Shown here piece by piece: positions 1,961 through 23,442 of a stretch of DNA of 64,000 bases. The DNA comes from Polytrichum commune (Eukaryota; Streptophyta; Polytrichopsida; Polytrichales; Polytrichaceae). The notes under the pieces were generated by a model. The model saw nothing but the letters and a program-made list of their open reading frames with translations, was not told the origin of the DNA and did not search any database. The translations under genes were made by a program, and so were the position numbers. The DNA lies in contig OX485803.1 of NCBI GenBank assembly GCA_950295325.1, forward strand, positions 74,787,554-74,851,553. The letters are read 5' to 3'. Position 1 is the first letter of the stretch; the number at the start of each line of letters is the position of its first letter.

Positions 1961-1991
1961 AGTTTTTTGCTATCACTTAAAACAACAACAA

Positions 1992-2017
1992 CACTATATT
2001 CGGTATTTGGAGACTTT
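1992..2017 (+). repeat. Left terminal inverted repeat of the 18.2-kb element
   Basis: Starts CACTATATTCG, ends GGAGACTTT, and pairs with 20172-20197 at 23/26 positions. A second GAGAC follows about 15 bp inward, as in the related termini near 23.2 and 23.4 kb. Confidence 0.7.
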
Positions 2018-2391
2018 TTGTTGATTATGAGACTATATAAGGATGCACATTTCAAAAATGGACCAGTAATGACGACTAAAAATCCCATATGTATAATGGT
2101 ATGCTACTATTATTATACATAAAGGCATGGAAGTGAACAAAAATGTGAGGCATACATGAAAATAGTTGCGTATGAAATGACAACTCGTTATGAATGGAAG
2201 GGAAGATGCGAAGAATGAATGGAAGTTGAATGAATTAATTGGGATAGAAATACAATTATAATGGAAATACCATCAATGTCTTGAGTAACTTGGAATAGCA
2301 TAGAAAGTAAGCACTTAAATATGTTCTACACCTAAGCCCATTTAGGGAGTCCGTCCCACTAGTACGCTTCTAGTCACACTAGTCCGACCCA
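2018..2391. other. No gene seen; AT-rich, 3' flank of the left gene
   Basis: No coding signal. Several ACTAGT hexamers (2355-2385) make a small imperfect inverted repeat just downstream of the left gene's stop. I see no certain polyadenylation signal. Confidence 0.4.
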
Positions 2392-3377
2392 CTATTTTTT
2401 TTTTGCGGCTAAGTCCTTTTTTTTGGCGGCCTCCATGGCTCTAAAAATCTCAGGCCCACGACTGAATCCTTGTGTGTTGCCTGGATAGGAATATGTGTCG
2501 TTCTTGCATGTTTCAGGACGCGCTCCCGAATTGTACGAGGTGGTATTATAAGTAGAATACGAGGGCGTTTGCGAAAGGGAACGTCTTGCGCTTCTCCGGA
2601 GGGCCAGACAACGATCGGACTCGGAAGATGCGGCCTTGAGGGCGTGCCTATCCAAGGAGGACGTGGAGGAGGGCCGGGCACCAAGCGAGCGGGTAGCCAC
2701 CTGCGAAACAACGTCATAGGAAGATAAGAATAGGAATGGAGTGGGGAAAATAATGAGGGCGGTTTGGGATGGGCGCTCGTAAAGAGAACGGCACGCAAAC
2801 GGAAGACAAGGAAAGCAAAAGCGGGAAAGGGGTTTAGGGTTGAGGAGGGCACCTTGGATTTGGGGACGTCCATGCGGGGAACGGTGGGAACGAGGGGGGC
2901 GTCGACGGGAGCATCCGGAGCCGATGGAACTATTGCAATGTTGGATGGCGGGGGGGAGTCGAGGCGTGGAGGGCCCACGATCGCGGAGGACGTTGCGGGG
3001 GGAGGAACGGAGTCGGCGGGGGAGGTGTGGCAACGGGGGCCTTCCATGCGGAGACGGCGGCTCGGCCCGCGACGAGCGACAGCGTCGTCCCTCGAGGGCG
3101 AGAGGTGTCCCAAACGAACGAGCGTCCGTTTCTCCTTGGAGAGGGGGGAGGGCGACGGGGCGTACGCGCGGGGGACAAGTGCTGGGGGCGGGCTGTTGAC
3201 GACGCCGTCGTCGATGCCGACGTCGCGGGAGTAATCCACGGCCGAGGCCGCGTCGACCGCCGAGAAGTGGTAGAGGGATGGCATTTGGAAGTCCGTGACG
3301 TAGCGGGAAGGGGATGCGGGGAGCGAGAGGGGACGGGAAGAGCCGTCGACCACAGGGGCGTCGCATATGGGGGCAGA
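2392..3377 (-). CDS. Exons 5 and 6: low-complexity, basic C-terminal tail
   Basis: Exon 5 (3377-2853) begins SAPICDAPVVDG after a pyrimidine-rich tract ending CCCATAG, and is Pro/Ser/Asp-rich. Exon 6 (2700-2392) begins VATRSLGARP after GTTTCGCAG, is Ser/Arg-rich, and ends EAAKKKDLAAKKK then a stop. The intron between (2701-2852) has donor AAG|GTGCCC. Frames of the two exons differ by one but join in phase after splicing. No domain is recognisable. Because the region is very GC-rich, all frames are open, so this tail is the least certain part of the model. Confidence 0.45.
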
Positions 3378-6300
3378 CTATGGGCAAGAACAAGAACAAG
3401 AACAATCACAACAACAAAAGACATCCAAAAACGGGGCAAGCATTAGATATGTGAACCACATGATAACAAGCAAAGACATGGAGGCATTTCAAATCAATTT
3501 ATTGAGTTTGGCGAGCCTCATGATGCTCTTGAATACATTATCGCGGGGGCTTAGTGCCGCATTGCCGAAGGGGTTGGACCTAACAAAAAATGGGATGCTA
3601 CCGGCGTGGAGCACGAGCCTTCTAAGGTAGGGGGCTAGCCTATCGACCAAAAATGTGTCTTGCCTATCGCCGGTCCAAGTGTCCGGGAAGATGACGTTGC
3701 CCGGGGGGTTCAACACGCTCTTGGTGGGACTGTCGTCGATGAGGAGGGTGTTCTCAGGAGTCGGCCACCACCCGTGGGGCGTCCCCTGCAGACGGGGGAC
3801 GCCTTGCCAGAGTCTTGAGCGGAGGACCTTGAGGAACTGTTGTCCTCCGCCTCGACCGCCAAACTTGGGCACCGGTTGGCCCTTCTCGTCGAGCAGCTCG
3901 TCGCATTCCTCTTGGCCGACGACGAGGCAAGGGCGCGGGAGATCACGGAACAAGAAGTCGACGATGGGCTCCGTGTTCTCCATGACCATGGAGCTCCACA
4001 CAACGACGTGGGCGAACTCAACCACCTCGCGAAGGAAGTCGCGCAGGCCGGGACGGGCGCGGACAGCCTTGCGGTTTATGAGGGTCTCGAGCTCGCCGTC
4101 ATAGTCCCTTTCGTCGGGGTGACGGAAGGGACGCGTGGGAACCCTGGGGATGTGTTGGGTGTGACACAAGACCCCGTTGAGGTCAAAAACTATGAAAGGC
4201 TTGTTCCGGGTTCGAGGTCCACTGGTCGAGGGGTTGCGACCTATCTCCGGGGGGTCCTGTGATGAACAACGCGACTAGTTTAATTCTATGATCCAATAAT
4301 AAAAAATTTGCGTTCAAAATAAAGACGATGCATTATGGGAAAAGAGGAGGAAGTAAGGAGGGTGCAAGGAAAATGTGCACAAGGGCACAATTGCGAACGA
4401 CCGTTCGTGAATGAAGGCTGCGGGGCGGTGCGCATCATTTACGAACGCTCGTTCGTGAGCGCGGATGCATACATATACGAACGCTCGTTCGCGAAGGAGG
4501 TCGAGATGGGGTCGCACAGTTTTACGAACGAGCGTTCGTGAGTGAGGTGTGCATGCAAAGAATGCAAGGACGCACAAGAGTACAGACAACACAAGACGCG
4601 AGAATATGCAATAAGTTGAGGGGATGCGAGCAGAGATCGTCTGCTCATATATTAATTCGGTGAATATGTACAATTGTCTCGCGTGATAATCTATCACAAT
4701 TTCCTAAGGAAAAAATTCAGTGTCCTACAAAATTGATCGGCCCAAGGGATCACGTAGAAAAAGGCTCGCGCGGGCAACGTGATGTCGATGGAGTTGAAGC
4801 GCCAAGAACACAACGCGGGGATTAGTGATGTTACGAACGCGCGTTCGTAAAACATTTGGCATTCTCAGAGATGAGTTACCTCTTTGGTTAACGAACGCAC
4901 GTTCGTAATATCCATTGGGGCAGCAGCCTCTGGATCCATGACCTCCGCCGGACGCTCCGCCTGAGACGACTGGGTCTGTTGGATGAGCTCCACGTCGTCG
5001 TCCCCGCCCAGGTCGAGTCTCTCCATGCGGACATCCTCCATGTGCGCGGATGGATGTCGTTCCTGTTCAGGGCTCTCCACGACCATCCCACGCGGACCTG
5101 CCGAGTCATTGGGGCTCCCCTGCGTTTCCTCCACAATGACCATGTCAGTGTGTTGCGCAGTGTCATCGCCCCTCCTATCTACAACCCTTGGGACGACGGT
5201 GAAAGAGGTCGTGTCCGTGTCTGTGGGCAGTCCTACCCTTGAAGGGGGAGGGGTGAGGACTGCCGGACCTGAAGATTCACGAACGCGCGTTCGTAAATCT
5301 TCATCCTCCCTTAGCGCCGCCGTGATTGCATCGTGGGAGGTTGAGGCGGTCGCCGTCACCTCCGGGGGCAATGGACTTCCCGCCGGCGTTGGGTGTGGAG
5401 CTGTTTGGTGGGAAGGCCCTCCTTGGTACATGACTGGAGGTGGGGGCTGTGAGGGGTATCCTCTAGGGGGGAAGGGGTAAGGTTGTTGGACCGGCGCAAA
5501 GAAGCTCTGCATGTTTCTGAGCATCTCGAAGATGGCGTCAGTTTTGGCCGCTGATTCCCTCAGCTGCTCTTGCAGCCTGGCCAGATGCTTGGCGCTCTCC
5601 TCCTGGGCTGCAGCCATCTCCTCCTTCATCTTCGCCTCCAGCTTGGCATTGAGCTCAGAGACGGTAAGCGCCTCCTCCTTCACCCGCTTGTTCTTGTCGT
5701 AGTCCACCCCAAGCTCGGCCATGATGTCCATGTCCCCCTCGTCCTCGTCGGAGACCTCGATGATTGCTCCCGGAGGCAACTCCACGTAGGGAGTCTTCTT
5801 CATCCTCCTCCTCGTGTTGCGGAAGAGGTCCAAAGATGGACGCGAGCGTTGGTCGAGGATGTCCAGGGTTTCCATCTTCGGAACCACGGCGGGCCTTGGA
5901 GACTGTGACGTCGAGCATCCGCCTGGCGTTCCGAAAGGCTCCGCAAGAGACGTTCGCGCGGGGAGGAGGTCCAGGGTTGTCCCCGCGGACGACCCTGTAT
6001 AACCACCCGGAGTCCCTTGAGGGTCGGGAAGATCTGTCGTTGGCGGCAAGATCCGAAGCGGGGGTACGTCGAAGGACTGCAGAATGGCGTCCACGTTGGC
6101 GGAGGGGGCGGGCTCGTCGTCCTCTGAATCGTGGAGTGGTATGCCCTCGTCGGCGGGCATACTGAAGTCCATCCTTGGGACAGAGATGTCCTTGAGGTCC
6201 ATCGTCGACGCCTTCGCACGGTGGATCTTGAAGTCTTCTTCGTCGATAGCGTCAACGAAGGTGTTGACTACGAGACCCATCATCTGTGAGAAGAGGGCAA

Positions 6301-9241
6301 TAAGGTCAGAAAATACGAACGCACGTTCGTAAACATCAAAGCGTGGCGTGCAACGAGTTTCAAGCATTACATTACGAAGGGGGTTATGTTTACGAACGAG
6401 CGTTCGTAAACATCAATGCGTCACGTGCAGCGACTTTGAAACAATGCGTTGAGAAGTTGGTTAATTTTACGAACGAGCGTTCGTAAATGGAGTCTGGACA
6501 ACTTACCATGGCCGCATACATGAATTTGGAGCCTCCACATACGTTGTATACCGTCTCTCCACTTATAACCAGACTCTGCAATATAGAGACGTAGAACTCC
6601 ATCCTGAGTTCCATGGCGGGGAAGATGGTGTAGAGGGTCTCTTGCAGCAGATCCTTGGGAGGGGGATGCGGGATGCTGTAGATTTTCTTGAACGTGTTGT
6701 TCGCCTTGATAGGCGGTCGCCCATCCCTAAGCTCATTGTACGTCAAGAAAATCAGGCTGACCGCTCCCACTTGCTTGTTGCCCCTGGCCTCGTTGATGGC
6801 CACGATCCCCTCCGTCTTCGCTGGCACGTACGTGCTGTGGAAGATGCTGTACTCGAATTTGATCTTCTGCTCGTACAGCTCTGTGACGACCGACAGCTTC
6901 TCCTGTTCGACTATCCACAGCCAAACGTGTGGCTCCCTCATGGCCGGCGATTTGAACTCCATGAACTTGGCCATGAAGGGGTTGTAGAAGGGAATGTCCT
7001 TCCCCCCCTGCCTTGACGCACCCGGGATCCCCCTGAAATCGATCAGGGCAAAAGGGCAACCCCGTCGATCCTCCCTCACCTCGGCCCTGCTTATGGTGCC
7101 GTCCCACTTCGAAAATGTGACCCTCTCCACGCCGGAGGTCATCACGCAAAACCTTGCCACCCCTTCGAATGTGGCGTTCCTCTTCCTCTCCAAAAATTGT
7201 ATGTACAACATTACCTCGTGGGGATCCGTGTCGGTTTTCTTAGTCCTTTTGTTCCCCTTCAACTTCAAAACCGAGGCGTGCTCCTTGACCAGATTGCGCA
7301 TGGAGGCTCCGTTGATGTTGTAGTCGACCTTTAACAATTGCCATTGCGGCCAGTTGATGTCGCCGTCGACTTCAAAGATTTTGTACTCTGGTGCGAGTAC
7401 GCTCAATTCTCTCATGGCAGCAGTCTTCAGCTTCCGGTGGTCACACCACTCCTTGATAGAGTACGTGCCGGGCTTGTGCTTTGGCCTCTTCAAAAAGATC
7501 TTGGGATAGGGAAGGTTTCTTCCCACGGTGTTCCCAAGAACATAAATCGCACACCTCTTCAGCTCTGACTCCGTCAATCCCTGGAGGTGTCTAAAGAACT
7601 CCCTCAGTAGTGGGGGCGCCTCACCGGTTTTTTCCGTGCTGTACTTCTCCTCGGTGTCGGGATTGACCAAATCGCCCGAGCTGTGTGCATCAAAAAACTG
7701 TGTCCACAAGTCCCAGGTGTCCCTGTTGCAGCAGATCAGTCTGAGCTCACCCTTCAGCTCAAGCACTGATTTGGTGGTGGTGGACTTCATATCGATGGAA
7801 GAGAACTTGTCTACCATCGCGTCGCAAAATGCCTGCACAAAACAAGATGTCAGTGTTGCACATAATACGAACGCACGTTCGTAAATTGAGTATGTAATTG
7901 AAGTTTTCATGAATCTAACACTTTACGAACGTTCGTTCGTAAACTCACCTTCCATTGGGGAGACTGGTTCTTGGCGTTCTCCCTTTCCTTTGGTGGGCAT
8001 CCGTGTGCCACCCAGACGTCTCTGGCAGCCACTATGTTAGCCGCCCACGAAGCCTCGAACGCCTTGATTTTGTTCCCCGAGTTCAGGAAGGTTGAAATCT
8101 TGCGCAGCTTGTCCCAATCGTCCGACCAGACCAAGAACGCCTTCCAGTACCGCAGGTCAGCCTTCAACTCGTGCTGGAAGTTGTCGTCCTTGAAGATCTG
8201 TTGCGACGCCTCCAAGCTGTGCTGACCATCTATAATCCAGAATTCTCCATTCTGGATTCGCGGCCAATCCACCTCTGTCGGTCGGAATGTCAGCCCCTTG
8301 GGCATGACGCAGACTGTCTGTCTATCCCACTTGACGTTATTCATGAGGTTGTTTATCTGCCACTTCACCCCACCGTTCTCGCGAGACCTTACCACCCACT
8401 TGTTGGGTGACTTTTCGCACTTGAAGCAGTCCACGTTGAACGTGAAGTGGCGCCCCATGGGCCAGCAATCCTTCGAGTAATTATTGAAATCTCGTAGGAT
8501 CTTCGTTGCCTTCACCGCATCTGGATTCTCACCCTTCTTTAAAGGGGTTGGCATCACGGGAGGAGAGCTCACCTCAGCGCCCTCTGTTACCCCAGACCTC
8601 TCCATTTCGTCCCGGGACCTCTTCGATGGCGTGGAATGACAGCTGGGACCCTCCGTCACCCTGCTCGCGGAAGGCACCGGCTTGGATGCACTTCTCGATC
8701 CTCCTGCCCCGATTGCGGATGGTTTCCGTGGGCTCTTCTTCTTCTTGTTGGCTTCCGCGACCGCGCTATTGTACTTGGAGATATTCAAGGAGAGCGCGAC
8801 CAACTTCCTTGCTGTCCAGTACGAGCTCAGGGCGTACTTCGTGAAGAGGTCCTTGAGGAAGTGTTTGGCATCAGCCACTACGTTATTTTCCGCGTATGTG
8901 TAGGAGAAACTATGTCTCCTGTACTCTAACAATAGGTTAATGTGATCCTTCTTGTTTTTCATGTCTAGAATCACATAATCTCCTTGTGCCTCAATTGATT
9001 CTACTTCCCAAGTCTTCATCTGCACCCATTGCTCTGGCTGGTCCGGCGTCATTTCCAGCTCGTATGTGAAGCGAAGACAGAAAAGACCGTCTGATGTCTT
9101 CTCTGGCAGTGCCGTCCATTCCCCTATGAAGTCCTCCTTGGGGACATAATTATCGTTTCCATTGGGGTCGGACACTGACTCTGGTAGTTGATCTATCTGC
9201 ACTGCGAACATCTCAATGGCGCTTCTGCTCGGTCTGGCCAT
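2392..9241 (-). CDS. Putative six-exon gene: ParB-like + MTase-like + coiled coil + FCP1-like phosphatase + basic tail
   Basis: My gene model is join(9241-7949, 7832-6507, 6283-4880, 4256-3537, 3377-2853, 2700-2392). All five introns have GT..AG ends (GTGAGT, GTAAGT, GTAACT, GTATTC, GTGCCC donors) and all are phase 0, giving about 1,858 residues. Modules: ParB-like (motif 338-342), N4/N6 methyltransferase-like (about 690-890), acidic and coiled-coil linker, FCP1/NIF phosphatase (about 1360-1570), low-complexity tail ending in repeated lysines. The start ATG abuts the leader-intron acceptor CTCTGCAG. The first three introns, the leader and two coding spots carry palindromes. Exons are GC-rich against AT-rich surroundings. 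The uninterrupted phase is the main argument for one gene. The alternative is two or three genes, with the FCP1 part separate because intron 3 is long (623 nt). Function is inferred only from domains. Confidence 0.6.
3537..4256 (-). CDS. Exon 4: FCP1/NIF-type (HAD) phosphatase domain
   Basis: Encodes residues 1342-1581, starting DPPEIGR after the acceptor TTCATCACAG. The HAD signature FIVFDLNGVLCHT is at about 1363-1375. In FCP1 the motif is DxDxT/V; here the second Asp is Asn (DLNGV), a variant I associate with plant FCP1-like proteins. Motif II is VVWSS and the later acidic motif is LLIDDSPTK (DD at 1515-1516), followed by NPPGNVIFPDTW. FCP1-family enzymes dephosphorylate the RNA polymerase II C-terminal repeat or related targets. 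Without splicing at AAT|GTATTC the frame ends ...AKLNKLI at 3489, so this could instead be the C-terminus of a separate gene. No palindromes occur in this exon. Confidence 0.75.
4394..4906. repeat. Palindrome cluster in intron 3 and end of exon 3 (6 copies)
   Basis: Copies of ACGAACG-NN-CGTTCGT start at 4394 (14-bp core, CGAACGACCGTTCG), 4441, 4477 (last T changed to C), 4524, 4833 and 4891. The middle two bases differ (AC, CT, CT, AG, CG, CA). The first five are in intron 3; 4891 is in coding sequence, 11 bp from the donor. Confidence 0.97.
4880..6283 (-). CDS. Exon 3: end of MTase-like fold, acidic and coiled-coil linker
   Basis: Encodes residues 874-1341. It opens MMGLVVNTFVDAIDEED, completing the strand after motif I. 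Then come an acidic patch (SDEDEGDMDIM), a predicted coiled coil of about 60 residues (SELNAKLEAKMKEEMAAAQE onwards), a proline-rich stretch (PPRGYPSQPPPP) and a long Ser/Pro/Asp-rich region. Two palindromes are translated in frame here, at 5279-5294 (LRTRVRES) and 4891-4906 (ITNVRS). The exon ends TKE before a GTAACT donor; if unspliced, the frame would stop at 4865. The lower part is probably disordered. Confidence 0.6.
5279..5294. repeat. Palindrome inside exon 3
   Basis: A perfect ACGAACG-CG-CGTTCGT copy read in frame on the minus strand. It and the 4891 copy are the only two in coding sequence. Confidence 0.95.
6315..6484. repeat. Palindromes in intron 2 (3 copies)
   Basis: Full 16-bp copies start at 6315, 6392 and 6469, spaced exactly 77 bp. 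The 6392 and 6469 copies share sequence context on one side, so part of this intron looks duplicated. The 6469 copy begins 16 bp after the GTAAGT donor on the minus strand. Confidence 0.97.
6507..7832 (-). CDS. Exon 2: degenerate DNA N4/N6-methyltransferase-like domain
   Basis: Encodes residues 432-873. The order of elements matches a beta-class DNA methyltransferase. A strand-loop, FALIDFRG at about 693-700, sits where a DPPY-type motif would be. A helix-strand-helix block (FMEFKSPAMREPHVWLWIV, then FEYSIFHSTY) follows. The last is SGETVYNVCGGSKFMYAAM at 855-873, resembling the GDxVLDxFxGSGT-AA motif I. It continues across the intron as MMGLVVNTFVDAID. The catalytic DPPY is not present, so it may bind DNA or SAM without methylating. 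This assignment comes from motif order alone; a profile search would settle it. Confidence 0.5.
7867..7940. repeat. Palindromes at both ends of intron 1 (2 copies)
   Basis: The intron is 7833-7948 (116 nt). One copy (7925-7940) directly follows the GTGAGT donor; the other (7867-7882) lies about 30 nt before the CAG acceptor. Together they occupy more than a quarter of the intron. Confidence 0.97.
7949..9241 (-). CDS. Exon 1: ParB-like nuclease-fold domain
   Basis: Encodes residues 1-431 of the model, starting MARPSRSAIEMFAVQ. Residues 338-342 read DGQHS inside EFWIIDGQHSLEASQQI, the hallmark loop of the ParB/sulfiredoxin fold (usually DGxHR or DGQHR). The segment after it, WKAFLVWSDDWDKLRKISTFLNSGNK, fits the helix following that motif in ParB-type proteins. 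A basic Ser/Pro-rich stretch with KKKKSPRK lies about residues 200-260. In bacteria and phages ParB-like domains are often fused to DNA methylases, which matches the next exon. The canonical Arg of DGxHR is Ser here. The exon ends QWK before a GTGAGT donor that runs directly into a palindrome. Confidence 0.7.
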
Positions 9242-9274
9242 CTGCAGAGCACATAAACATTTAGTATTGTGTTT

Positions 9275-9836
9275 ACGAACGAGCGTTCGTAATTGACAAA
9301 GCAAATCATATACACTAATCATTGAACTCTGGCTATGGATACCCGTGAGAAGTTGTAATGATGTCTTCGCTGATTTCATTTACGAACGATCGTTCATAAA
9401 GAATGTGGTTGCTAAGGTGTATTTGACACAAGTTTACGAACGTGCGTTCGTGTTGTTTCTAAACAAGTCCACGAGTTGTCCAGGGTTATCTAATTTCCAC
9501 GAGGGTTGTTCGAATTTCCATGAGCATCTTCTAAATAGGTGAATTAATACTTTAGTTCTTATTTACGAACGTGCGTTCGTAAATAATGCTACTTGGAAAT
9601 GCAGACAATTACCATGAAGGGTTTGGTATATTGTTATAGTTTGTGATTACGAACGTTCGTTCGTATTTTTGTATGTGTAATTGGATTTGAGGATTTTCTG
9701 ATGTACAGGGTATAGACGAATATACGAACGTGCGTTCGTAAAAATGGAGGGTGAGGTGCGTATTTACGAACGCACGTTCGTATATGTTTGTGGGGTAAGG
9801 CATGTATTCACGCCACATTTACGAACGAACGTTCAT
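9275..9836. repeat. Palindrome array in the 5' leader of the left gene (8 copies)
   Basis: Copies start at 9275, 9382, 9436, 9565, 9649, 9724, 9766 and 9821. Most extend to TTTACG..CGTAAA. The 9382 and 9821 copies have one base changed in the right arm (CGTTCAT). Spacing is irregular, 42-129 bp. The ATG at 9241 follows the acceptor CTCTGCAG, so this array is in a leader intron or the promoter. The upstream 5' exon was not located; CTTCATG|GTAATT near 9614 is a possible donor. Confidence 0.95.
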
Positions 9837-10250
9837 AAATGTGGTCATCTGGGATTAGGAAATGGTATATTTATTTATGTACATATATATCCGTACATAT
9901 ACGTATAAATGTTGGTATGAATGTTGCAATCTGGCATTGTTCATGATCCTGCAACTCGTGATCAGATTGATGAAACACAAGTGAAAAATGGAATCAGAAC
10001 AAAATTGCGAGTCAGTGATTGATAGTTCAGAATGAAGAGGAAAGTGTTATTTCATACAAAACATGACATACCTCATAATGCAGAAAACAAATCACAAGGA
10101 ATTCATCAAACAACAATTTCAGATTGTGAAGGAGTGATTTGTAAAGGAAACCTGTACTCACATTGAATTGTTGCACACAAATCCTCCTGCCTTCACTTTG
10201 TCACACTCTCAAGCCTTCACAACTTATATGCAAATCCTACACAAACCCTG
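9837..10250. other. No gene; AT-rich spacer
   Basis: Upstream side of the left gene. No palindromes occur beyond 9836. I see no coding sequence; promoter elements cannot be assigned with confidence. Confidence 0.4.
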
Positions 10251-10415
10251 ATGTACACAACTCACAAGCTTCACAAAACTCAAGCTTTCTGAAGCTCTGA
10301 AGCTCTCAACCTCTCAACCTTTCTGAAACTCTCAACCTCTCAACCTCAAACTCAAGCTCTCAAGCTTTCTAAAACTCTCTACCTCTCAAGCTTTCTAAAA
10401 TTCTCTACCTCTCAA
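10251..10415 (+). repeat. Tandem repeat array, left part
   Basis: Diverged CT/CA-rich units based on CTCAAGCTTTCTAAAACTCT. The array is split by the CACTA element and resumes at 11398. Confidence 0.85.
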
Positions 10416-10563
10416 CACTAGTAGAAAATTCTGCGTCCGGATCAACAGAAAGGCGTTGGTCGCGGTTGTTACATAGGACGCGTTGACCTGGACATGATGT
10501 AACACAATTTTGTTGATTTTTTCTGTTGATATGGTCACAAAAAGATTTTTAAAAAAAAAACTT

Positions 10564-10599
<36 letters not shown>

Positions 10600-10602
<3 letters not shown>

Positions 10603-10818
10603 TACATTAAAAATTAAAAAATGAATAAATGGAAGATCTGCAATTCCTAACACCTCCCAAGTAACCCTCAACCTATACCTCACCTACAAAGTATAGACTA
10701 CCTACCACTCACCTAGGTGGCAAAGCCCAAGCCGAAGGTGTCGGCCACGGGAATCGAACCTTGCACCTAGTGACATCCACACATGTGCCTTAACCACTAG
10801 GTCATCACATCACACATG
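10600..10818 (-). mobile_element. tRNA-derived SINE inside the CACTA element
   Basis: The minus strand shows a Pol III A box, TAGTGGTTAAGGC, and a B box, GGTTCGATTCC, about 45 bp apart near the start. A tRNA-unrelated body and an A/T-rich tail running into an (AT)n tract follow. The tRNA fold is not complete, so this is a SINE and not a tRNA gene. Confidence 0.75.
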
Positions 10819-10874
10819 ATATAAATGGTGTGTTTTAAACCTTTCTAGAATAAGGCCACTATTTTCTCTTTACT

Positions 10875-11060
10875 ACCTACTTGATGTATATATTTACTGT
10901 AAATATATACAGTATATATATAGTATATAATTACAGTATATATATAGTATAATTACAGTATATATACAGTATATAATTACAGTAAATATATACTGTATAT
11001 ATTTATTGTAAATGTATACATATACATATTAATTCATATACATATATATATAATATTAAC
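10875..11060. repeat. TATATA/ACAGTATATA-rich tract
   Basis: Multiple TACAGTATATA and TACTGTATATA units in both orientations give strong hairpin potential. It lies within the CACTA element. Confidence 0.7.
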
Positions 11061-11397
11061 AATCAACTAATATAATATTTATAATATTTACACACCTTTG
11101 AATTCGTAAATATTTCCATATCCATACACTTACAAGTCCATAAATTGCAAAAAATTAAAAAGATTTTACAATATTCCAATAGATCCTAGAATATTCCAAA
11201 AAGATTCCAAAAATTTCACATTTACTAAAATTTTGTTGATTTGGTCATTGTACTATTCTAATCAACAAAAATGTAGGCAATAAACAGTTGATTTTTACAA
11301 AAATTCAAAAATCAGTGAAATCGGTCATTGCAATGCCCGGATCGACAAAGATCTGTTGATTTTTTGTTGATTTGGTCATGATTTTCTAGTAGTGCAA

Positions 11398-11550
11398 TCT
11401 TTCTAAAATTCAAGCTCTCAAGCTTTCTAAAACTCTAAACCTCTCAAGCTTTCTATAACTCTCAACCTCTCAAGCTTTCTATAACTCTCAACCTCTCAAG
11501 CTTTCTATAACTCTCAACCTCTCAACCTTTCCTACTCTCAAGCTTTCCTA
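11398..11550 (+). repeat. Tandem repeat array, right part (about 26-bp unit)
   Basis: Units such as CTCAAGCTTTCTATAACT then CTCAACCT recur about five times. This continues the array left of the CACTA insertion. Confidence 0.88.
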
Positions 11551-12060
11551 TTCTCAAGGTTCTGACAACACAACAAAATAACATTCACAATGAGGCTCTA
11601 AAATTGGCAAGGGCTTCGCTGCACCTAAGAGCTCCTCTCCTCCTCTGCTCCAAATGACAAATGAGGAGGAGAGAGAGGGGCGCGGGGAGGTAGCCGGCGC
11701 CGCTAGGGTTTCCAAGCGGCGGTGTCGGGTAGAGAGGGTTCCGCCTTGGGAAAGCGTTGGGCTTCTGGCTGCAACTAGATTTTATCGGACCCGTCGAATC
11801 TTTTGATCTTCAATCGAATCTTCCGGTCTTTTAGTCTTCAATTTCTTCAATTTCTTCTAATCTTCAACCTCTTTCCCGTCGACCTATCCTGTTGCGGCTC
11901 TATATGGATAAAGGGTAAGGGTAGTGTGATAAGAAACCACGGGCTTCGGACGGGTAAAACGGGACGTCAGAACACGAGCTGACGTCCGAAAGATTGGCTC
12001 CTAAACTTTCAAACCCACGGTGACCAGCAATCGCACCTCACCAGTGGGAACGACAGAAAA
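11551..12060. other. No gene; short GC-rich block at 11640-11780
   Basis: The GC-rich block contains GGCGCCGCTAGGGTTT, which resembles a plant 5' leader with a telo-box. No supported reading frame follows. It could be a promoter relic between the two divergent genes. Confidence 0.35.
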
Positions 12061-12064
12061 CAAC

Positions 12065-12178
12065 CTTGTGGGTGATTAATCCCACTTCGTTGTCACAAAC
12101 AACCTTGTGGGTGATTAATCCCACTTCGTTGTCACAAACAACCTTGTGGGTCATTAATCCCACTTCGTTGTCACACAG
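12065..12178 (+). repeat. 39-bp tandem repeat, three copies
   Basis: Three near-identical units beginning CAACCTTGTGGGTGATTAAT differ at one or two positions. The unit is a multiple of three, so an ORF runs through it, but I see no sign of real coding. Confidence 0.95.
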
Positions 12179-12639
12179 GAAACAAATTACGATGCAGAAA
12201 TGAAATGCAACTAGCCTCCAAAACCGGCTTGGAATCACACACACAAGAAAAAGACAACGTGCCACAAGCAACCACGCATTCGAGTCTTGAAGCCTTCAAT
12301 TCTTTAATCTGTCCGTCTTCTATGGTCGGTCGAAGTCTCAGCTCTTCTTTTAAGAACCAACAGACTTCCCTCCACTCAAACAAGCACAAATCTTGATTGC
12401 TAACTTCCAAAACAACAAGTGAGATCACTCATGAATCACAAATCCCTCGTATTTTATTTCATATTCTTCTCAAAAACAACTCACACCGTGAGCTTCGAAT
12501 CCACTTCTCTCTCTCTTCACAACTTCTCTCCCTCAATAATCACATAACATCTTTCCTTCACCACCTCTCCCTATCCATGCGAGAGACAAAGTTCTCTCTT
12601 ATCCTCATCACATGGCTTCTAATCACCCATTGGTCCAAA

Positions 12640-12835
12640 GTAACTCAAGATAACTAAAAGACAAAAATAAACTATGAGTAAATAAAAAGGTAATCTATTT
12701 CTATCATTTGGTAAAGGTAACTAAAAGTAACTATGAGTAAACATAAAGGTAAGCAACTTCTATCCACTTCTATCCTTAGGTAATGATAACTAAAATAAAC
12801 TATGAGTAAATAAAAAAAGTAATCTACTTCTATTC
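12640..12835 (+). repeat. Diverged repeats of a TAACTATGAGTAAA unit
   Basis: Three copies of AACTATGAGTAAA followed by AAAGGTAA-type sequence lie about 55-65 bp apart. AT-rich and non-coding. Confidence 0.7.
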
Positions 12836-12954
12836 TTTATTATTTTTCTCCAAGACCAAGACTCACAATGCAATATTAAATACGTACACATCTATATAGT
12901 GTACGTATTTACATCACGACAGCGGCCACGTGGCTAGTGGCCACTAGCGAGGGC

Positions 12955-13190
12955 TGGGATGGGGGAGGGGGATGGGGATGTGGGATGGGGATGTGGGATG
13001 GGGAGGGGGGAGGGGGAGGGGGGAGGGGGATGGGGGAGGGGGATGGGGATGTGGGATGGGGATGGGGAATGGGAATGGGGAGGGAATGGGGAGGGGATGA
13101 GGATGGGAGGGGATGGGGAGGGGATGGGAAGGGGAGGGGATGGGGATGAGGGGATACCATGGGGACATGGAGGGATGAGGGTTCAGGAAA
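12955..13190 (+). repeat. G-rich GGGGATGGGA minisatellite, G-quadruplex prone
   Basis: About 230 bp of GGGATGGGGA/GGGGAGGGG units with nearly all purines plus T on the plus strand. Open frames here (Gly/Met or Pro/His-rich) are composition artefacts. Confidence 0.92.
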
Positions 13191-13539
13191 AATGAAATAG
13201 GAGATGGGAGGAGCTTAGTTTAGGGACATAAATTTGACTTTCCGTATCCCCTTAGTACCTCGACATATGGATTCCTTGTAAACATATTTTAGAAAAGTAT
13301 GTTCAGATAATTTGTATTTAACAATTCATGTCATTTAGTAGGTTTTCGATGAAGAATCCACCCCCAAGATGCAAATGTCGTTTTCATGAACGAGACATCT
13401 TTAAAGTTCTTCAATGGTTCCTCAAATAAATATTACATATATAAATGACTCAATTTAAATTGTGGAGAGGGGCTATCTGATTCTCCACAAGAGGTGGATG
13501 AAAATTCAATTTTCAATACGATGTCATTAATTTCATGAG

Positions 13540-13910
13540 GTGTTAGCTTGAACCACCCTTAATATGATATTTAGTGTTAGATACTCTAAATACAAACGCA
13601 TAGTACACTAAATATCACTAACCCTATGAAGGTAACTACTATTCATTGCGAACTCAAACACTTAATGTCAACTATAATGGTAATATGTGGATGTCGCATG
13701 CACAAATTTTGTGTAAGGAAATTAATATGAAAAAAACAATTAACAATGATAAAAGCATAAAGGACATGGTAGTAGGAAATGTGGTGGCCCATTTAATATG
13801 TCCAACACTAATTATCAAAGAATTGAAATTTAGTGTTGACCATGATAGCGTAACAACACTATATTATACAATCAAACACTAAATATCATATTTAGTGTAG
13901 TGTATTTTAG
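13540..13910. repeat. Repeated ACTAAATATC motifs in both orientations
   Basis: Near 13565, 13603 and 13880, copies of ACTAAATATC or its inverse GATATTTAGT occur. The last pair forms the palindrome ACTAAATATCATATTTAGT. No gene. Confidence 0.55.
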
Positions 13911-14089
13911 CCATGTGGTCGCATGTTTTGCTAGTAGTATCAATTGATAGTATGAGCTTCCCATAAATTAAGTTAGTGCGATATGGATTATTTAGGAGTC
14001 GATATTGTTTGTGTATATAATGCATTGAAGTAACGATCTAAACCTTAAGCCCGCAAACCACATAGACAACTCTTTCACAAACTCTATAC

Positions 14090-14128
14090 CCAAACCCCAA
14101 ACCCCAAACCCTAAACCCTAAACCCTAC
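14090..14128 (+). repeat. Interstitial telomere-like tract (CCCTAAA)n
   Basis: Two CCCCAAA units followed by three CCCTAAA units; CCCTAAA is the standard plant telomeric heptamer. It is too short to be a telomere; likely a repair scar or telo-box cluster. Confidence 0.85.
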
Positions 14129-15440
14129 ATCTTTTTATCTTACCAACCTTTCTTATATATGGCCATGTTGTGGTCTATGCGCATCATGTCAAAATGGTCT
14201 ACCAATGTTGGTTCGATTGGAAATTGCTTTATTTGGGTCATAGCAACTATAATAATCTAGACTCATGCCAATAATTGTCATTTTGATATAAAACATTGGT
14301 TTAGGGGGTGAAGAGTGAATTTTGAAATGCTAGCCCTTTCACCTTAATAGTTTTGAGTGCAATTTGATCACACAATACACACTTAGTCTTATTATAACAT
14401 GAATGGTATAAGACTTCAACTTAAATCAACAGTTAAGCTATGGTCATGCACATACTTCTTGTTGCAAATAATACAAATATATAATTGTAAGAGCATACTA
14501 TTGTATGCACCATTCCAAATTCGTTATCCATTTCCACACCATGGTGGACCTAAAGTGAATTTCCAATAGGACGTCAAGTCATTTAATTAGGTGTTAACTT
14601 GAACTAACGATCGAATACTAGTGCATTAAACTTTAATTTTCACCAATGATGAATTGCAACAATGATTCATATTAATATGGGCCGATGTTTGGTGAGCCTC
14701 CAGTTCCAAATGTCCTCAATCTACCTAGCACAAGCCATTATGGATTAAGCGACTTTTTATTGGTATTCATGCACTTGGTGACCATATTACAAGCATTTTT
14801 TTTATGTGAATCATATGATACCTACAATTTTAGGGGATTCCACAATATGTTCTTAGCCACTCTTACCTCATTGTGTGTGTGAATATATATATCACTTAGA
14901 CCTTCATCAATTCACTTGGACTTCACACCTTAGTCGCAAATCATTTAATACTCAATGTTAACCCATCAACATATATATATATAATATAATAACCCATATA
15001 TAAAATAGTAAAATAGTAAAATATACGTATATATACATATAAATATAGACATATAGACATATTTTCGTGCGACCTTGGTAACAACTAAGGTGTGCGACGG
15101 ATTTATAGATTTACAATATGTTGCGTACACGCAAGACATGTTCCATATATAATGCTATTTATATATTGCGCATGGATGGAATGGCATATTGTTAGGTCAA
15201 AGTAGGCGGCGGGAATCCGCTTTTTAAATAGCATCAAAGGGATTTTGAACCATCGGGGGGAAGGTACTTAAAGCTCTTCCCCCCCACAGAAGAGCTCTTT
15301 TCTGCGGCACATCCAAGTGTGCGCTCCACAGACCTGACTGGAACGCGCTTAAACCATTTTCTTGTGCGCCAACCCTACACCACCCAGGTCCACTACAGAC
15401 TGCACATACCCGTATATACCGCCGCAAATACCGGACGTTT
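14129..15440. other. No gene; AT-rich, upstream of the right gene
   Basis: Tracts of ATATAT lie near 14970-15060. A hairpin-prone AAGCTCTTCC...GAAGAGCTC stretch is at 15270-15300. No conserved frame. Confidence 0.4.
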
Positions 15441-16514
15441 ACGAACGCACGTTCGTAAACGTGAGTTGGTAGCACATGTACAATAGGTACATCGATATGA
15501 TGTGAGTTGTTTACGAACGTGCGTTCGTAAGTTGATCACAACCGTACTCGACATTGAGTTCCTTATAGACAGAACTAGGCACGAAAATTGTGTCGATGAT
15601 ATACGAACGTACGTTCGTATATCTACCTTCAAGACCCAGACGCGCATGAGTTCCTGTGTAACCGTTTTCTCCAACGGAACATCTGGTGATGGGATATTTA
15701 CGAACGTGCGTTCGTAAATATCACCTGGGATTATTTTTCAAGAATCCAAAAAACATTCTTTAATTTATACACTTCAGTGCATTGGCCACGTTAACAATAT
15801 GCAAGTTAAATACGAACGAGCGTTCGTATTTCTCACTACCGTTTGTGTCCGCGGAGAATTATGTTAGTTGAATTTTACGAACGCACGTTCGTAAATACCA
15901 CCTGTCCACCGTCCACGCATCCACCAACAGGCCTGTTGACGCAAGCATGTGTAGAGGACTACACCGTGTTTATGATAGATACGAACGCTCGTTCGTATCT
16001 ATGCAATCATGATTTAGTGATAGATGTCGACTGTCATTTTCCACTGGTTATTGGATAACATGTTTCCCTGTAACGTGGCTATAGATATCTCTATTCGGAC
16101 GTGTCCAATCATTTTTTCCAAACACTGTCGCGGCTGTGACATACAGATGATCGGTCGTTTGCATCCGCCCCTAAGTTTCGGCTGGAACTTACGAACGATC
16201 GTTCGTAAACACTCGCCCATCAAATATGATGCTTACTGCATGTGGATAAAGTGGCAAGTATATTTTAGGTGCTCTTATAATATGTCCCATTTAGATTTGA
16301 TTGTATATTGGGTTGATATTTTCGTCCGCGCGTTCGTGAATATATGTGCTTGTGTTGTCCCTTGGTGGTGGACAACCCTTCCAATGTTTTATTGGCGACT
16401 CGACCCAAAGCCCTTCACGGGTAATATATATCGGAATGGGGTTCCGTTGTGCAGGGACGTCTGAGTCCCGTGTAGGATTTGCATGTCATCGAGCTGTTGT
16501 CGAACGCACGTTCG
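15441..16514. repeat. Palindrome array in the leader of the right gene (8 full copies plus 1 core and 1 degenerate)
   Basis: Full ACGAACG-NN-CGTTCGT copies start at 15441, 15513, 15603, 15700, 15812, 15877, 15981 and 16191. A 14-bp core copy is at 16501, and a degenerate one near 16321 keeps only CGCGTTCGT. Centres vary (CA, TG, TA, TG, AG, CA, CT, AT, CA). All lie upstream of the acceptor at 16654, on the start-codon side of the right gene, mirroring the left gene. Confidence 0.96.
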
Positions 16515-16659
16515 TCTTCATATGTGAGGTCCCGCAACGGTGTGGCGAGAGTTGTTTGTGATTTTTGAGCCATATATGTAGGCATATCTCGTATCCACTT
16601 TTGTATGCATTGTGGTGGTTGTTGTGTTGGTCATTTTATTGGTGGTTTGTTTAGGTTGG

Positions 16660-19600
16660 ATGGCGATGCACGTTGGATATAGTTCATTGGAGTTGTCCAC
16701 AAAAGCTTCCTCTTCCGATGATGACTGTAAACTATCTTCGCCATCGGCGGGTAGTCATGGCATGGCAAATGCCATGGGTGGGTTTGTGGATGCATCCTCC
16801 CACGAATCATTTGAAGCGCACGAACAATCTATACGTTCCGGGGATGACAATGATGACATTCCGTTATATGCCGGTTTCGGTAGGGAGCAATGGGTGGGCC
16901 TTGATGTTGTTCTTTTCAACGATGTTGGTGTCCCCGTGGCAGATGGCATATGTAGAAACTCTGATCCCCGTGATTGTGTTGATGCCAACCCCCTTGGTCC
17001 CGATGATGTGGGTGTGTGCATCTTGAATTCTTTGCTTCCGCTTGACGTCCCGGTGACATGGAGATTTTCCTTGCGTCGATGGCCTCTTTGTCGGGTTCTC
17101 CATGACGGAGTAAGCTTGTTGGACCATGAGCGCCGCCATAATCAAACGCAATTAGCTTTGTTGACCAAAATACGTCCTCGCAAAGGCCTACGCAGATATG
17201 ATTCTAACCGTGTGCCTCGTGGAGATAAGGAACGTCGACGGGATCGCATATTGGGAGACGAAACTATCCGTCTTGTGTCCGCCAAAGACTGTTGCGAGAG
17301 GAAATGTTGCCAATTTTTCCCGCGGGAGAAAATTAAGTCCCTACGTCAAGAGATGTGGCTTGCGGATTTCCGTATGAGATCGGCAAAGAAACTCGAGGTC
17401 CACAGAAATGTCTACATTGACACCCATGGGCGTAAGGTGGTCACACTTGAGAATGTGGAAGTGTGTTGTACTGCGTGGTATACCATCCACGCCGTGTCAA
17501 AGTCTGACTTTTATAGGTTTCAAAAATATTCATTGTTCGGTCGCCGCTCTCGATTTCATGGCAATTCGGGCACAAAGAAACCTAGGGAGGCTACACTCCA
17601 AGCCTCCGCGACACTCTCCACCATCATAGTCCCATTGGCCGATGCAATGCCCCACAAGACGAGGACATTGTCGTCAGGGGAGAAAGTTGTATAAATGGTA
17701 TTGCCCACGGGTACAAAATGGAAGAACATATTAACGGACATCAATGAAGTGGGTCGCATAGCGGGATGTGGGCCCATTTCTTTGTCCAAGTTGAGTGTGA
17801 TTAAAAACCAACAGTTTGCCGAATACATTTTGAAGAGACCTGGGGACAAGTTCGCTAGGTGTACGACGTGTGAAAAATACAAAGGTCTTCGAGACGCCCA
17901 CCCCATAGGCACCGAATCCCACACTAGACACCAAGCAAAATATATTGAACATGTCAACAACCAAGAGGCTCACCGTCAAGATTACTACAAGAACCGTGCT
18001 CTATCCATAATGAGGCCTACAGAGGTTCTAACAATCATCCATGATAAAATGGACCACGCCAAGACCGCATGCCCTTGTTATGCACGCAAAATTAAGGCCA
18101 CGGATGGTCTCTTCAAGTTGCCCGTATCTGTCACAGGTTTGTATTGAATCACAAATATGTATTCAAATTCTCTCAAATTTTACTGGGTGTGTTTGCCAAA
18201 TGTCCAATTTCATACCTCCGTTTGGAGTTGTCGTTGTTATTGTTGTTGTTCAAGCATCGTTTGTTTTTTTTCGCAGGGATGATTGCCCACGGCCATGGAG
18301 ACGTAAAGTATGCCCATTATGGGTTGGATTTTTACCCTGGCGATGCTAACCACACAGTGGGTTCATTTGCAAAACTCTTGCGCGATCTGGAGAAGCCGCC
18401 GTTACATTCATCACGTGCACTTTTTGATGGTTGTGGAACGACACCCCTTTACGAAGCAGTGCTTGCGGGGAAGGAGGTTTGTATGTCGTCATTGCCAGAA
18501 CCACCGGGAGAACCTATTTGTGCAAAACCATTGCCTCCAACTCTTCACGTTCAACTTGATAATTGCGCGAAAGACAACAAATGTCGATACGTATTTTGTT
18601 TTTGGTCATTGCTTGTGGCAAAAGGAATCTTCAAAGAGGTGTTTGTGTCGTTTTTGATGGTGGGACATACACACGACGACATTGATGCATCATTCGGACG
18701 GTGGAACATGAAGTTGCATGAAGAAGATTTTCCAACCATACCTCTTCTTATGAAATCGTATATGAATTTGGACCATATGCCAGTAATTCCGCACATGATT
18801 GAGGAAGTACCAGATTTCAAGGCCTTCATCAAGTCATACATGTTGAAGGGAGGGGACCGTTTGGTGGGGCATACCAAAGCACAACAATTCCGATTCTATA
18901 TAAGGGATGATGGTCTCCCAGCCATGCAATTCAAGCTTTTGTGCACATCTCCTAATTGGGGACCGGATGATGGTATACTCGTATGGCGTCAAGACAATGA
19001 TGGGAAATGTTTGCTCCCGGATGGGGATCCAAAGCCTTGCAAACCCGACCCCATGAGGAATGGGCCGGAAATCATCAAAGGCATATCCGGATTCATTGAA
19101 TATTGGAAAGAGTTGTGTGAGGAGGACATCACTAGACGTGTTAGAGATACTCATGAACCTTTGATTGCGTATTGGGATCGCATTCGCTCGGCCCTAATGA
19201 CACTTGGTGGTGACACCCGTACAACTTTAACACAAGGATTTTGGCCATAAAGTCGTTTGACGGTTGTCGAGTCCGACACCATGGTTTTTAGCAATGGAGA
19301 CGTTCGTGAAGAGTTCGCAATGGACGAGCATTACGTTGGCCCTGCCCGCAATCGACCGGCACCGTCGTTTCGTGTAGGTGTTGATTGCCATGAAGGTTAT
19401 TTGGTCCTTGTACGAGCAGGGGATGAGGAACATCCCAAGCCAATTTGGTTGGTGAAAGCATTGTCTTCACCCAATTTTGTTCGAACTAGCCCCAACTTTC
19501 GTCAGATTGAGGTGGAATATTGTCGTCCAAGTACTAAAGACCAGAACGTGCTACGCACTTATTTAGATTGGGACACCAAAAAGAATTTTAAGTGGACAGT

Positions 19601-19796
19601 GGACTCAGCGTACACACCGGTTTGGATAAACACGGATACTATACTTTGTGCTTGGAAGCCGCGCAAAGGTTCCAAAACAGAAACAATGACCATCCCCCAA
19701 AAACATATAGATTTTGCCAAAGACAACTTGGCACGTATTGCAGCTGCGGAAAATGACGCCGATAATGGATATGAAGCGGAAGACGGAGATGTGTAA
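16660..19796 (+). pseudogene. DUF7869-type transposase-like gene with two in-frame TAA stops
   Basis: My model is exons 16660-18136 and 18277-19796 (intron of 140 nt; GT..TTTTTTTTCGCAG), 999 codons counting stops. The ATG at 16660 lies 5 nt after the acceptor TTTGTTTAG. A Cys cluster, KDCCERKCCQFF, is near residue 217. The conserved block has LHVQLDNCAKDNKCRY and then FLMVGHTHDDIDASFGR, the pattern of DUF7869-type proteins. Its Asp/His-Asp residues suggest an RNase H-like, DDE-type nuclease. Single TAA codons at 17692-17694 and 19248-19250 interrupt an otherwise open frame on both sides; one C-to-T change from CAA would explain each. The C-terminal 180 residues after the second stop still look protein-like. 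I infer a transposase for the surrounding element, now disabled. Confidence 0.7.
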
Positions 19797-20171
19797 ACAT
19801 AACATAGGTGGGAGTTCATGGCGAAAAACATGGACGCTTAGTAGACTTGGTTTTTAATAGACTTCATGGACTTGTCACACTCCATTGTGGTATACGTTTG
19901 GGATGTGCCATCCAAATTCATAAGAGCCTTACTTATGGGATGCGCACCCCAAACTCTATAATGACATAAACCATTTGTTTTTTTAGATTCGATTGTTATT
20001 TTCCACATGGAGCTCACGTTTGCATTTTAATTGACATTCTCTATTTTTAGAAATAAGAATATTCTTTACGTGCAACTTTTTAAATCGTTATGTTCTTGAT
20101 GTTCCCAATATTCCGTATGCCCACAATATTGGCATCCCAAACTATGGGCAGATTTTATTTTGAGACTTTCG
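19797..20171. other. No gene; 3' flank of the right gene
   Basis: AT-rich with no recognised feature until the 18-bp palindrome GAGACTTTCGAAAGTCTC at 20162-20179, which overlaps the right terminal repeat. Confidence 0.4.
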
Positions 20172-20197
20172 AAAGTCTCCGATTAACGAATATAGTG
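20172..20197 (-). repeat. Right terminal inverted repeat of the 18.2-kb element
   Basis: On the minus strand starts CACTATATTCG and ends GGAGACTTT, paired with 1992-2017. The inner part forms a perfect 18-bp hairpin with the adjacent sequence. Confidence 0.7.
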
Positions 20198-23189: not shown

Positions 23190-23442
23190 CACTATATTCG
23201 TTAATTTGAGACTTTCTCTTGTCTCAAATTAATATATGGACCACAACAACATGGTCTACTGTTTGGGTCGTCCTACCTAAACCATCTTGATATGAGTTCT
23301 TAATTGGGTTCTTGATATGAACACCTGCTTCAAAGTATTTGCATCTTACAACGTTCTCCAATATCTGTGTGATTTTATCCATGTTCTTATATTTGTAACT
23401 GTCTCAAAATGCCGAAAAAATCTCAAATTAACAAATATAGTG
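23190..23442. mobile_element. 253-bp non-autonomous relative of the 18.2-kb element
   Basis: Left end CACTATATTCGTTAATTTGA; the right end, read inverted, is CACTATATTTGTTAATTTGA, followed in both by GAGAC or GAGAT and a second GAGAC/GTCTC. Both match the 1992 and 20197 termini. No coding capacity. Flanks (AAT and ATA) show no clear duplication. Confidence 0.6.

Follow-up and report, generated by a model that had tools for sequence, protein, structure and literature searches.

The element and its palindromes

The window analysed here is a stretch of 64,000 nucleotides from contig OX485803.1 of the moss Polytrichum commune, and at positions 1990-20199 it holds an element whose inverted ends begin with AACACTATATTCG and enclose two divergent genes together with an array of interrupted palindromes. 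The two genes, described already in the earlier note on this DNA, were matched in the Pfam scan of the window to PF25273 (DUF7869, plus strand, E 3.3e-40) and to PF03031 (NIF, FCP1/SCP phosphatase-like, minus strand, E 2.1e-13). The second, or accessory, gene also includes a ParB-like and a methyltransferase (MTase)-like exon, and its exons presumably form one protein. In this genome, eight lineages with such a second gene (A to H, the window copy belonging to family A) each have their own palindrome, built of two equal arms round a two-base centre.

In the window, 30 matches to the A palindrome ACGAACGNNCGTTCGT (at most one mismatch) were found, against a mean of 0.00 in 100 whole-window shuffles. 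All of them lie at 3114-16515, inside the element, in agreement with the approximately 30 internal palindromes noticed before. The ten-base arms are fixed and the two centre bases variable. Across the genome (408 Mb), 5602 exact copies of it were counted, against four of its reversed control. A hundred listed sites, counted by reading, fall into six clusters of 3 to 33 with no solitary site, and the palindromes belong to the transposon family. In A and B, exact palindromes reach 24-31 per element. Conserved exon blocks fill 42% of the window element, and 29 of the 30 palindromes lie outside them (P 1.9e-6), one site overlapping a block edge by a base.

Comparison with a related copy, A2, which has the same motif, showed 269 of 294 aligned bases of the palindrome cores to be identical, compared with 1711 of 2864 in the other aligned non-coding sequence. 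To guard against repeats serving as alignment anchors, the palindromes were also masked before alignment, and 14 of 27 still coincided where 2.35 were expected, namely 8 of 10 between exons and 6 of 17 upstream of genes.

Private palindromes of the sister families

Family B (C1:7843500-7861200) has the same genes but no A palindrome, and carries its own GTTTGGGTCG-NN-CGACCCAAAC. The palindrome of family C (C2, ~25 kb) is CCCACGGGTG-NN-CACCCGTGGG, that of family D is TTTACGGACG-NN-CGTCCGTAAA, differing from A by one base per arm, and that of family E is about AGGGTGAGGCA-NN-TGCCTCACCCT; E is the most distant, and both the DUF7869 gene and a DGQH protein are present in it. Genome-wide counts were 10011 for B, 953 for C, 1394 for D and 203 for E, with 0, 0, 1 and 0 for the respective reversed controls. 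A matrix of the five motif types against 13 stretches is nearly diagonal. No full site of types A-E was found in the E copy L031, in the remaining 44 kb of the window or in L033. The last is a DUF7869 locus whose domain is broken by a stop, and it yielded no palindrome motif. The half-palindromes of L031 are largely situated in ~59-bp tandem units beside its DUF7869 gene.

The rule of private palindromes was tested on three further families. The ParB-like exon of C reached loci at ~25% identity, and F, G and H were taken from these by second-gene homology alone. All three have their own palindrome: TTCCACTCG-AT-CGAGTGGAA in F (16 sites at no more than 5 mismatches), CCACTTTCACTCG-AT-CGAGTGAAAGTGG in G (15 sites, all mismatch-free in the inner 22 bases) and GAGGTTCCTCTCG-NN-CGAGAGGAACCTC in H (17 sites). 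A divergent DUF7869 gene with palindromes upstream is present in F and G, while the H stretch ended too short to judge. A differs from D, and F from G, at one of the nine to ten inner arm bases.

Many palindromes stand in tandem repeats, for example in B with spacings of 36, 38 and 40 bp, as could be expected if the palindromes were structural or mutational by-products, formed as hairpins or by tandem duplication and having no reader. However, the fixed arms and varying 2-bp centre in A, the A-A2 conservation, the avoidance of exons and the private sequence in each family make this origin very improbable. Two clusters of B palindromes (C1:438281-478026 and C1:2154257-2159629) have no CACTATATTCG end nearby among the listed end sites, and possibly represent further families using the B motif.

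Ends, target duplications and copies of the element

The terminal inverted repeat (TIR) of the window element is 28 nt long and 89% complementary. The inverted ends of 26 bp (23/26) given in the earlier note are thus real but too short, and the element extends 2 bp further on each side. The note had seen no target duplication; when the termini are read as AA-CACTATATTCG...CGAATATAGTG-TT, with the terminal dinucleotide counted inside the element, a target-site duplication (TSD) CAAC appears at both ends (Table 1). The end motif CACTATATTCG occurs in exact form 1282 + 1323 times in the genome (reversed pattern 47 + 71), and among the first 100 sites listed, neighbouring motifs no more than 30 kb apart formed 21 inward-facing pairs and 8 in other orientations. 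Flanking sequence was read for the window element and every one of the 21 inward pairs, 22 end pairs in total; it held an exact 4-bp TSD in 17 cases and a match at 3 of 4 bases in two, and failed in three, whereas left and right flanks combined from different copies matched in 4 of 462 cases. The reading of this locus as a transposon is sustained by a multicopy family with paired ends. One 9.5-kb copy between ends (C1:639072-648548) contains 33 listed A palindromes, some of them at a ~160-bp period.

Both genes are joined at other loci as well. At least 111 loci match the DUF7869 exon at 87-100% identity, many with long open frames; the frame measures 384 aa in the window, where it is broken by two stops, and 540-583 aa in many of the copies, and the A2 copy reads through. 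The ParB-like exon of A has at least 87 loci, and in 59 of the 87 listed copies a divergent DUF7869 gene lies within 15 kb (median gap 6.9 kb), while random placement gave a mean of 0.2 and a maximum of 2 such pairs; a non-divergent DUF7869 gene within this distance was found for one listed copy. As both gene listings, of which the scored places were used, are incomplete, this fraction is probably a lower bound. Against a DUF7869 list that ends at 150 places, such a divergent gene lies within 25 kb of 39 of 47 second genes in family C (random 0.23; best 47 of 92 matches) and of 17 of 76 in family B (random 0.34; 76 of 83 matches, seven short 3' pieces omitted). Within this genome, with other joint loci present and palindromes clustered with the element, none of the outcomes that the note had named as speaking against it was seen.

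In 7 of the 21 inward pairs the end motifs are 231-242 bp apart, representing miniature copies. All seven fetched miniatures, five of them with exact TSDs, are devoid of A or B palindromes and of the D half-site, and two have one B half-site, so the palindromes seem dispensable for mobility in cis. This bears on the possibility that the palindromes and the second protein form a transposition complex, like the TNPA sites of En/Spm, which take part in such a complex. The second gene and the palindromes do travel with the DUF7869 gene, the 9.5-kb copy bounded by ends keeps its palindromes, and in family C the outer palindromes lie ~0.6 and ~0.2 kb from the element ends. On the other hand, the miniatures lack the palindromes, and in the window element the first palindrome stands 1.1 kb inside the left end and the last one 3.7 kb inside the right, which makes a transposition complex improbable. 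A further miniature copy is present in the window itself at 23190-23442, with CACTATATTCG ends (one mismatched), a TSD matching at 3 of 4 positions and no palindrome.

TSDs were also read in other families: TTGT in D, TTCC in E, TACA in C (by reading) and GTAT in G, where the ends are AACACTATATTAAAC. The ends of F were sought in the fetched stretch and not found, a tandem repeat alone surfacing there, and those of H were not found in the fetched stretch either. The letters CACTA within the ends suggested membership in CACTA/EnSpm, the terminus of which is CACTA itself; here CACTA has two more bases on its outer side, mostly AA or AT in A/B-type ends, and the target duplication measures 4 bp. 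The TSD of CACTA/EnSpm is given as 3 bp (PMC12730594), and none of the 22 end pairs has a 3-bp duplication at offset 0. Because both TSD length and terminus differ, this membership was rejected.

Sola elements, in contrast, generate a 4-bp TSD, as found here in the A/B-type pairs and in families C, D, E and G. We infer that the DUF7869 protein is the transposase, probably one of the Sola1 group; a Sola1 element has been recorded in another moss, Physcomitrella (PMC9033089). A search of viral contigs for DUF7869 gave 76 pattern matches with zero confirmed, and no mention of DUF7869 was found in the literature searched, mostly without subscription journals.

The coordinates of all features are collected in Table 1. 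The AT-rich centre of the element also holds, at 10884-11021, two 69-nt arms, 78% complementary and without spacer, while the remaining 44 kb of the window (20300-64000) are without an open frame of 200 aa. Elsewhere in the genome, which has seven large contigs, two of three chromosome starts fetched carry the telomere repeat CCCTAAA, and the third reads N.

Table 1. Features of the family A element in the window (positions of the 64,000-nucleotide stretch).
Feature	Positions	Strand	Basis
TSD CAAC, left copy, 4 bp	1986..1989		flank reading
Left TIR, AACACTATATTCG...	1990..2017	+	repeat comparison of ends
Palindrome, outermost left, 1 mismatch, 1.1 kb from left end	3114..3129
FCP1/SCP-like (NIF) exon, accessory gene; motif DLNGVL, Asn for second Asp of DxDx(T/V)	3492..4274	-
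Six palindromes between middle and FCP1-like exons	4393..4906
Middle exon, accessory gene, weakly conserved; one palindrome inside at 5279	4985..6286	-
Three palindromes between MTase-like and middle exons, presumed intron	6315..6484
MTase-like exon; YNVCGGSKFMYAAM similar to beta-class DNA methyltransferase motif I, with DxRxxPG in DPPY position	6501..7838	-
Two palindromes between ParB-like and MTase-like exons, presumed intron	7867..7940
ParB-like exon, 5' portion of accessory gene; contains the motif IDGQHSLEA	7940..9247	-
Eight palindromes upstream of ParB-like exon	9275..9836
Intergenic centre, 5.6 kb, AT-rich, without palindromes	9837..15440
Nine palindromes upstream of DUF7869 gene	15441..16515
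DUF7869 gene, 5' coding part; in-frame stop near 17692	16612..18147	+
DUF7869-containing 3' coding part, interrupted by an in-frame stop near 19248; carries the motifs LDNCAKDNK and GHTHDDID	18144..19796	+
Right TIR	20172..20199	-	repeat comparison of ends
TSD CAAC, right copy	20200..20203		flank reading

Domains of the second protein

The names ParB-like and MTase-like are motif-level labels only. The ParB-like part has a (D/N)GQH motif in all families from A to H and no Pfam match; its best library match is one PHROG ParB, for D only (E 0.024), and no helix-turn-helix (HTH) able to read the site was identified in the second protein. A tblastn search of phages with the MTase-like exon of B and the ParB-like exon of D gave no match. 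The one low E-value in the PDB profile searches (8.9e-6), between the MTase-like exon and a connected cytochrome c555 trimer over 31 query residues, was taken as chance.

The FCP1-like part, also matched to PF03031 in family B (E 7.5e-16), has D(L/V)NG(V/I) in A, A2, B, C, D, F and G in place of DxDx(T/V), the catalytic motif of FCP1/SCP phosphatases. The MTase-like exon was compared with a YhdJ-family profile made from YhdJ and 73 of 80 returned loci (L057-L061 were omitted as near-copies, and two for length or a stop). Its GGS segment falls on motif I in a weak match (P 0.05-0.09), with lower scores and P 0.48-0.56 in the controls, the reversed alignment and the other two exons. The catalytic motif IV of beta-class DNA methyltransferases is (D/N/S)PP(Y/F/W); in the MTase-like exon, DxRxxP, invariant in 5 aligned rows and occurring also in F, G and H, takes what is presumed to be its place.

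It is also possible, though unlikely, that the second protein acts as a working methyltransferase on its own element, with the ParB-like part finding the palindrome and the MTase-like part depositing N6-methyladenine or N4-methylcytosine (6mA/4mC) as a mark of permissive chromatin. For the algal ParB-MTase proteins of Ectocarpus and of green and red algae, binding to the transposon that carries them and its epigenetic modification have been suggested (PMC12477816), and the segment resembling motif I is located at the expected place of the profile, but that match is not significant and motif IV is replaced by the invariant DxRxxP. With altered catalytic motifs in both enzyme-like domains, the second protein would rather be mainly a binding scaffold than a factor for DNA methylation or RNA polymerase II (Pol II) dephosphorylation.

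Constraint and divergence

Synonymous divergence (dS) is saturated between families, and selection on the second gene was read from the A-A2 pair. There, the ParB-like exon has a dS of 1.0, a nonsynonymous divergence (dN) of 0.08 and a dN/dS of 0.08, a ratio which shows purifying selection. Along the element dS is uneven, amounting to 0.15 in the FCP1-like and 0.22 in the DUF7869 exon, and this hints at an exchange of gene modules between families; the unevenness, from 0.15 to 1.0, spans 3492-19796 of the window in comparison with L025/L026.

Families A and D, which differ in motif, share 46% identity in the ParB-like exon and 85.5% in the DUF7869 exon; the corresponding values for F and G are 63% and 84%. 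By these identities, the accessory gene diverges more quickly than DUF7869 in the two close pairs with unlike motifs.

Proposed role of the second protein

In our view, the locus represents a single member of a large TIR DNA transposon family whose second protein would be a self-specific, VANC-like scaffold for anti-silencing or activation, a reading to which we assign a probability of roughly 0.55. The second protein would bind the palindrome of its own family, possibly as a symmetric dimer, as suggested by symmetric sites with a two-base centre, and would coat the non-coding DNA of its element. Its own copies could thereby be kept or made transcribable, through anti-silencing or activation of the kind known from VANC. 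Both the binding of the palindromes and the effect on silencing are predicted from sequence. Control of expression or chromatin is preferred over a role in cutting because the sites are located between exons and upstream of genes, are lacking both in the miniatures and at the termini of the window element, and are private to each family.

The presence of palindromes upstream of both genes, and their symmetric, operator-like form, could also be explained if the second protein were an autorepressor acting on the arrays, thus limiting its own expression and that of the transposase. However, arrays are found between exons as well, the 24-31 exact sites of A and B elements are beyond the need of a repressor, and the families are highly multiplied. 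We hold autorepression to be a doubtful explanation, somewhat less probable than self-methylation.

Several observations weigh against the anti-silencing scaffold. DUF7869 is listed in Pfam as being of function unknown, the ParB and MTase parts have no significant match in Pfam, PDB or phages, and single-sequence structure models of these two exons reached a mean predicted local distance difference test (pLDDT) value of 34. Family E is without a visible FCP1-like frame of 150 aa or more, and its copy L031 lacks full palindromes, having instead 38 one-sided sites at 5421-9578. Both D stretches hold one A-type palindrome each, and in some families the two centre bases are not free, being AT in 14 of 16 sites of F and in 15 of 15 of G. 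Pairing of the two genes is low in B on the list of 150 DUF7869 places, and with the outer palindromes of C so near the ends, a function there is harder to dismiss for that family. Furthermore, A and A2 share the motif, yet their second genes are 87% identical and their DUF7869 genes 95%, so the faster change of the second gene is not proof of retargeting. The ratio of observed to expected CpG, which is 0.95 in the window element as against 0.47 in the remaining 44 kb of the window, fits low methylation in A and also youth of the element, and the stretches of families B, C, D and E, flanks included, give 0.52-0.78. Likewise, high copy number and intact frames fit an escape from silencing but also simple youth.

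Comparison with known systems

ParB-parS partition systems consist of a ParB protein and palindromic sites. Our element resembles them in its ParB-like domain and its palindromes, but differs in giving no sign of partition. The gene set itself has a closer counterpart in the brown alga Ectocarpus, where the 21.5-kb Sola1-1_Ec32 has a gene for a ParB-like and N4/N6 DNA-methyltransferase protein opposite the transposase (PMC12477816). Here too, a ParB-like and MTase-like gene, so labelled by motifs, lies on the strand opposite DUF7869. Compared by description, the moss elements differ in the FCP1-like domain and the motif array, neither of which is mentioned for Ec32 in the available text (PMC12477816), and in the altered, presumed catalytic motif IV. 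The gene set is therefore not wholly new, and the earlier note's remark that it knew no described element with this set of parts is weakened by the published ParB-methyltransferase gene opposite a Sola1 transposase. The Physcomitrella Sola1 likewise comes from a moss, and its table entry names no accessory gene or motif (PMC9033089). In fungi, members of several DNA transposon superfamilies have a TET/JBP gene as an epigenetic accessory; they differ in the enzyme, and no self-motif array is mentioned for them in the available part of that work (PMC12730594). The literature searched, mostly without subscription papers, gave no account of self-palindromes arrayed in elements of this kind, and within that scope it is the private arrays that are new here.

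If the proposed role is true, eight natural protein-motif pairs in one genome would make both a recognition code and an arms race testable, with A/D and F/G, one inner-arm base apart, as natural specificity pairs, and a set of new sequence-specific chromatin-opening factors would be at hand. The published algal ParB-methyltransferase accessory proteins also gain a candidate target, namely self-palindromes.

To our knowledge, the self-desilencing of a transposon without waking the rest of the genome has been worked out in detail mainly for VANC. VANDALs are Mutator-like elements (MULEs), marked by a MULE transposase and by VANC (DUF1985) domains; neither a MULE nor a VANC domain was found in the Pfam scans, which gave DUF7869 and NIF instead. 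In VANDALs, the VANC motifs cluster within introns and upstream of genes, in many cases as tandem repeats, and they differ between families (PMC5735166), diverging together with the VANC protein (PMC5735166, PMC10398659). The comparison with VANDAL and VANC made in the earlier note is apt in this respect, since the moss elements also have family-specific motif arrays in presumed introns and upstream regions. Unlike the 9-base motif of VANC21, YAGTATTAY (PMC5735166), however, the sites here are interrupted palindromes of 18-28 bp, and the proteins are different. By this analogy, the mechanism probably works like that of VANC, with an element that is not a VANDAL member. We see even odds that a single protein family on Sola1-like transposons of a land plant has been aimed at eight interrupted palindromes within one genome, with the introns and promoters of each transposon family rewritten to match, and that this ParB-like, degenerate-MTase and FCP1-like scaffold would constitute a second self-address system, independent of VANC.

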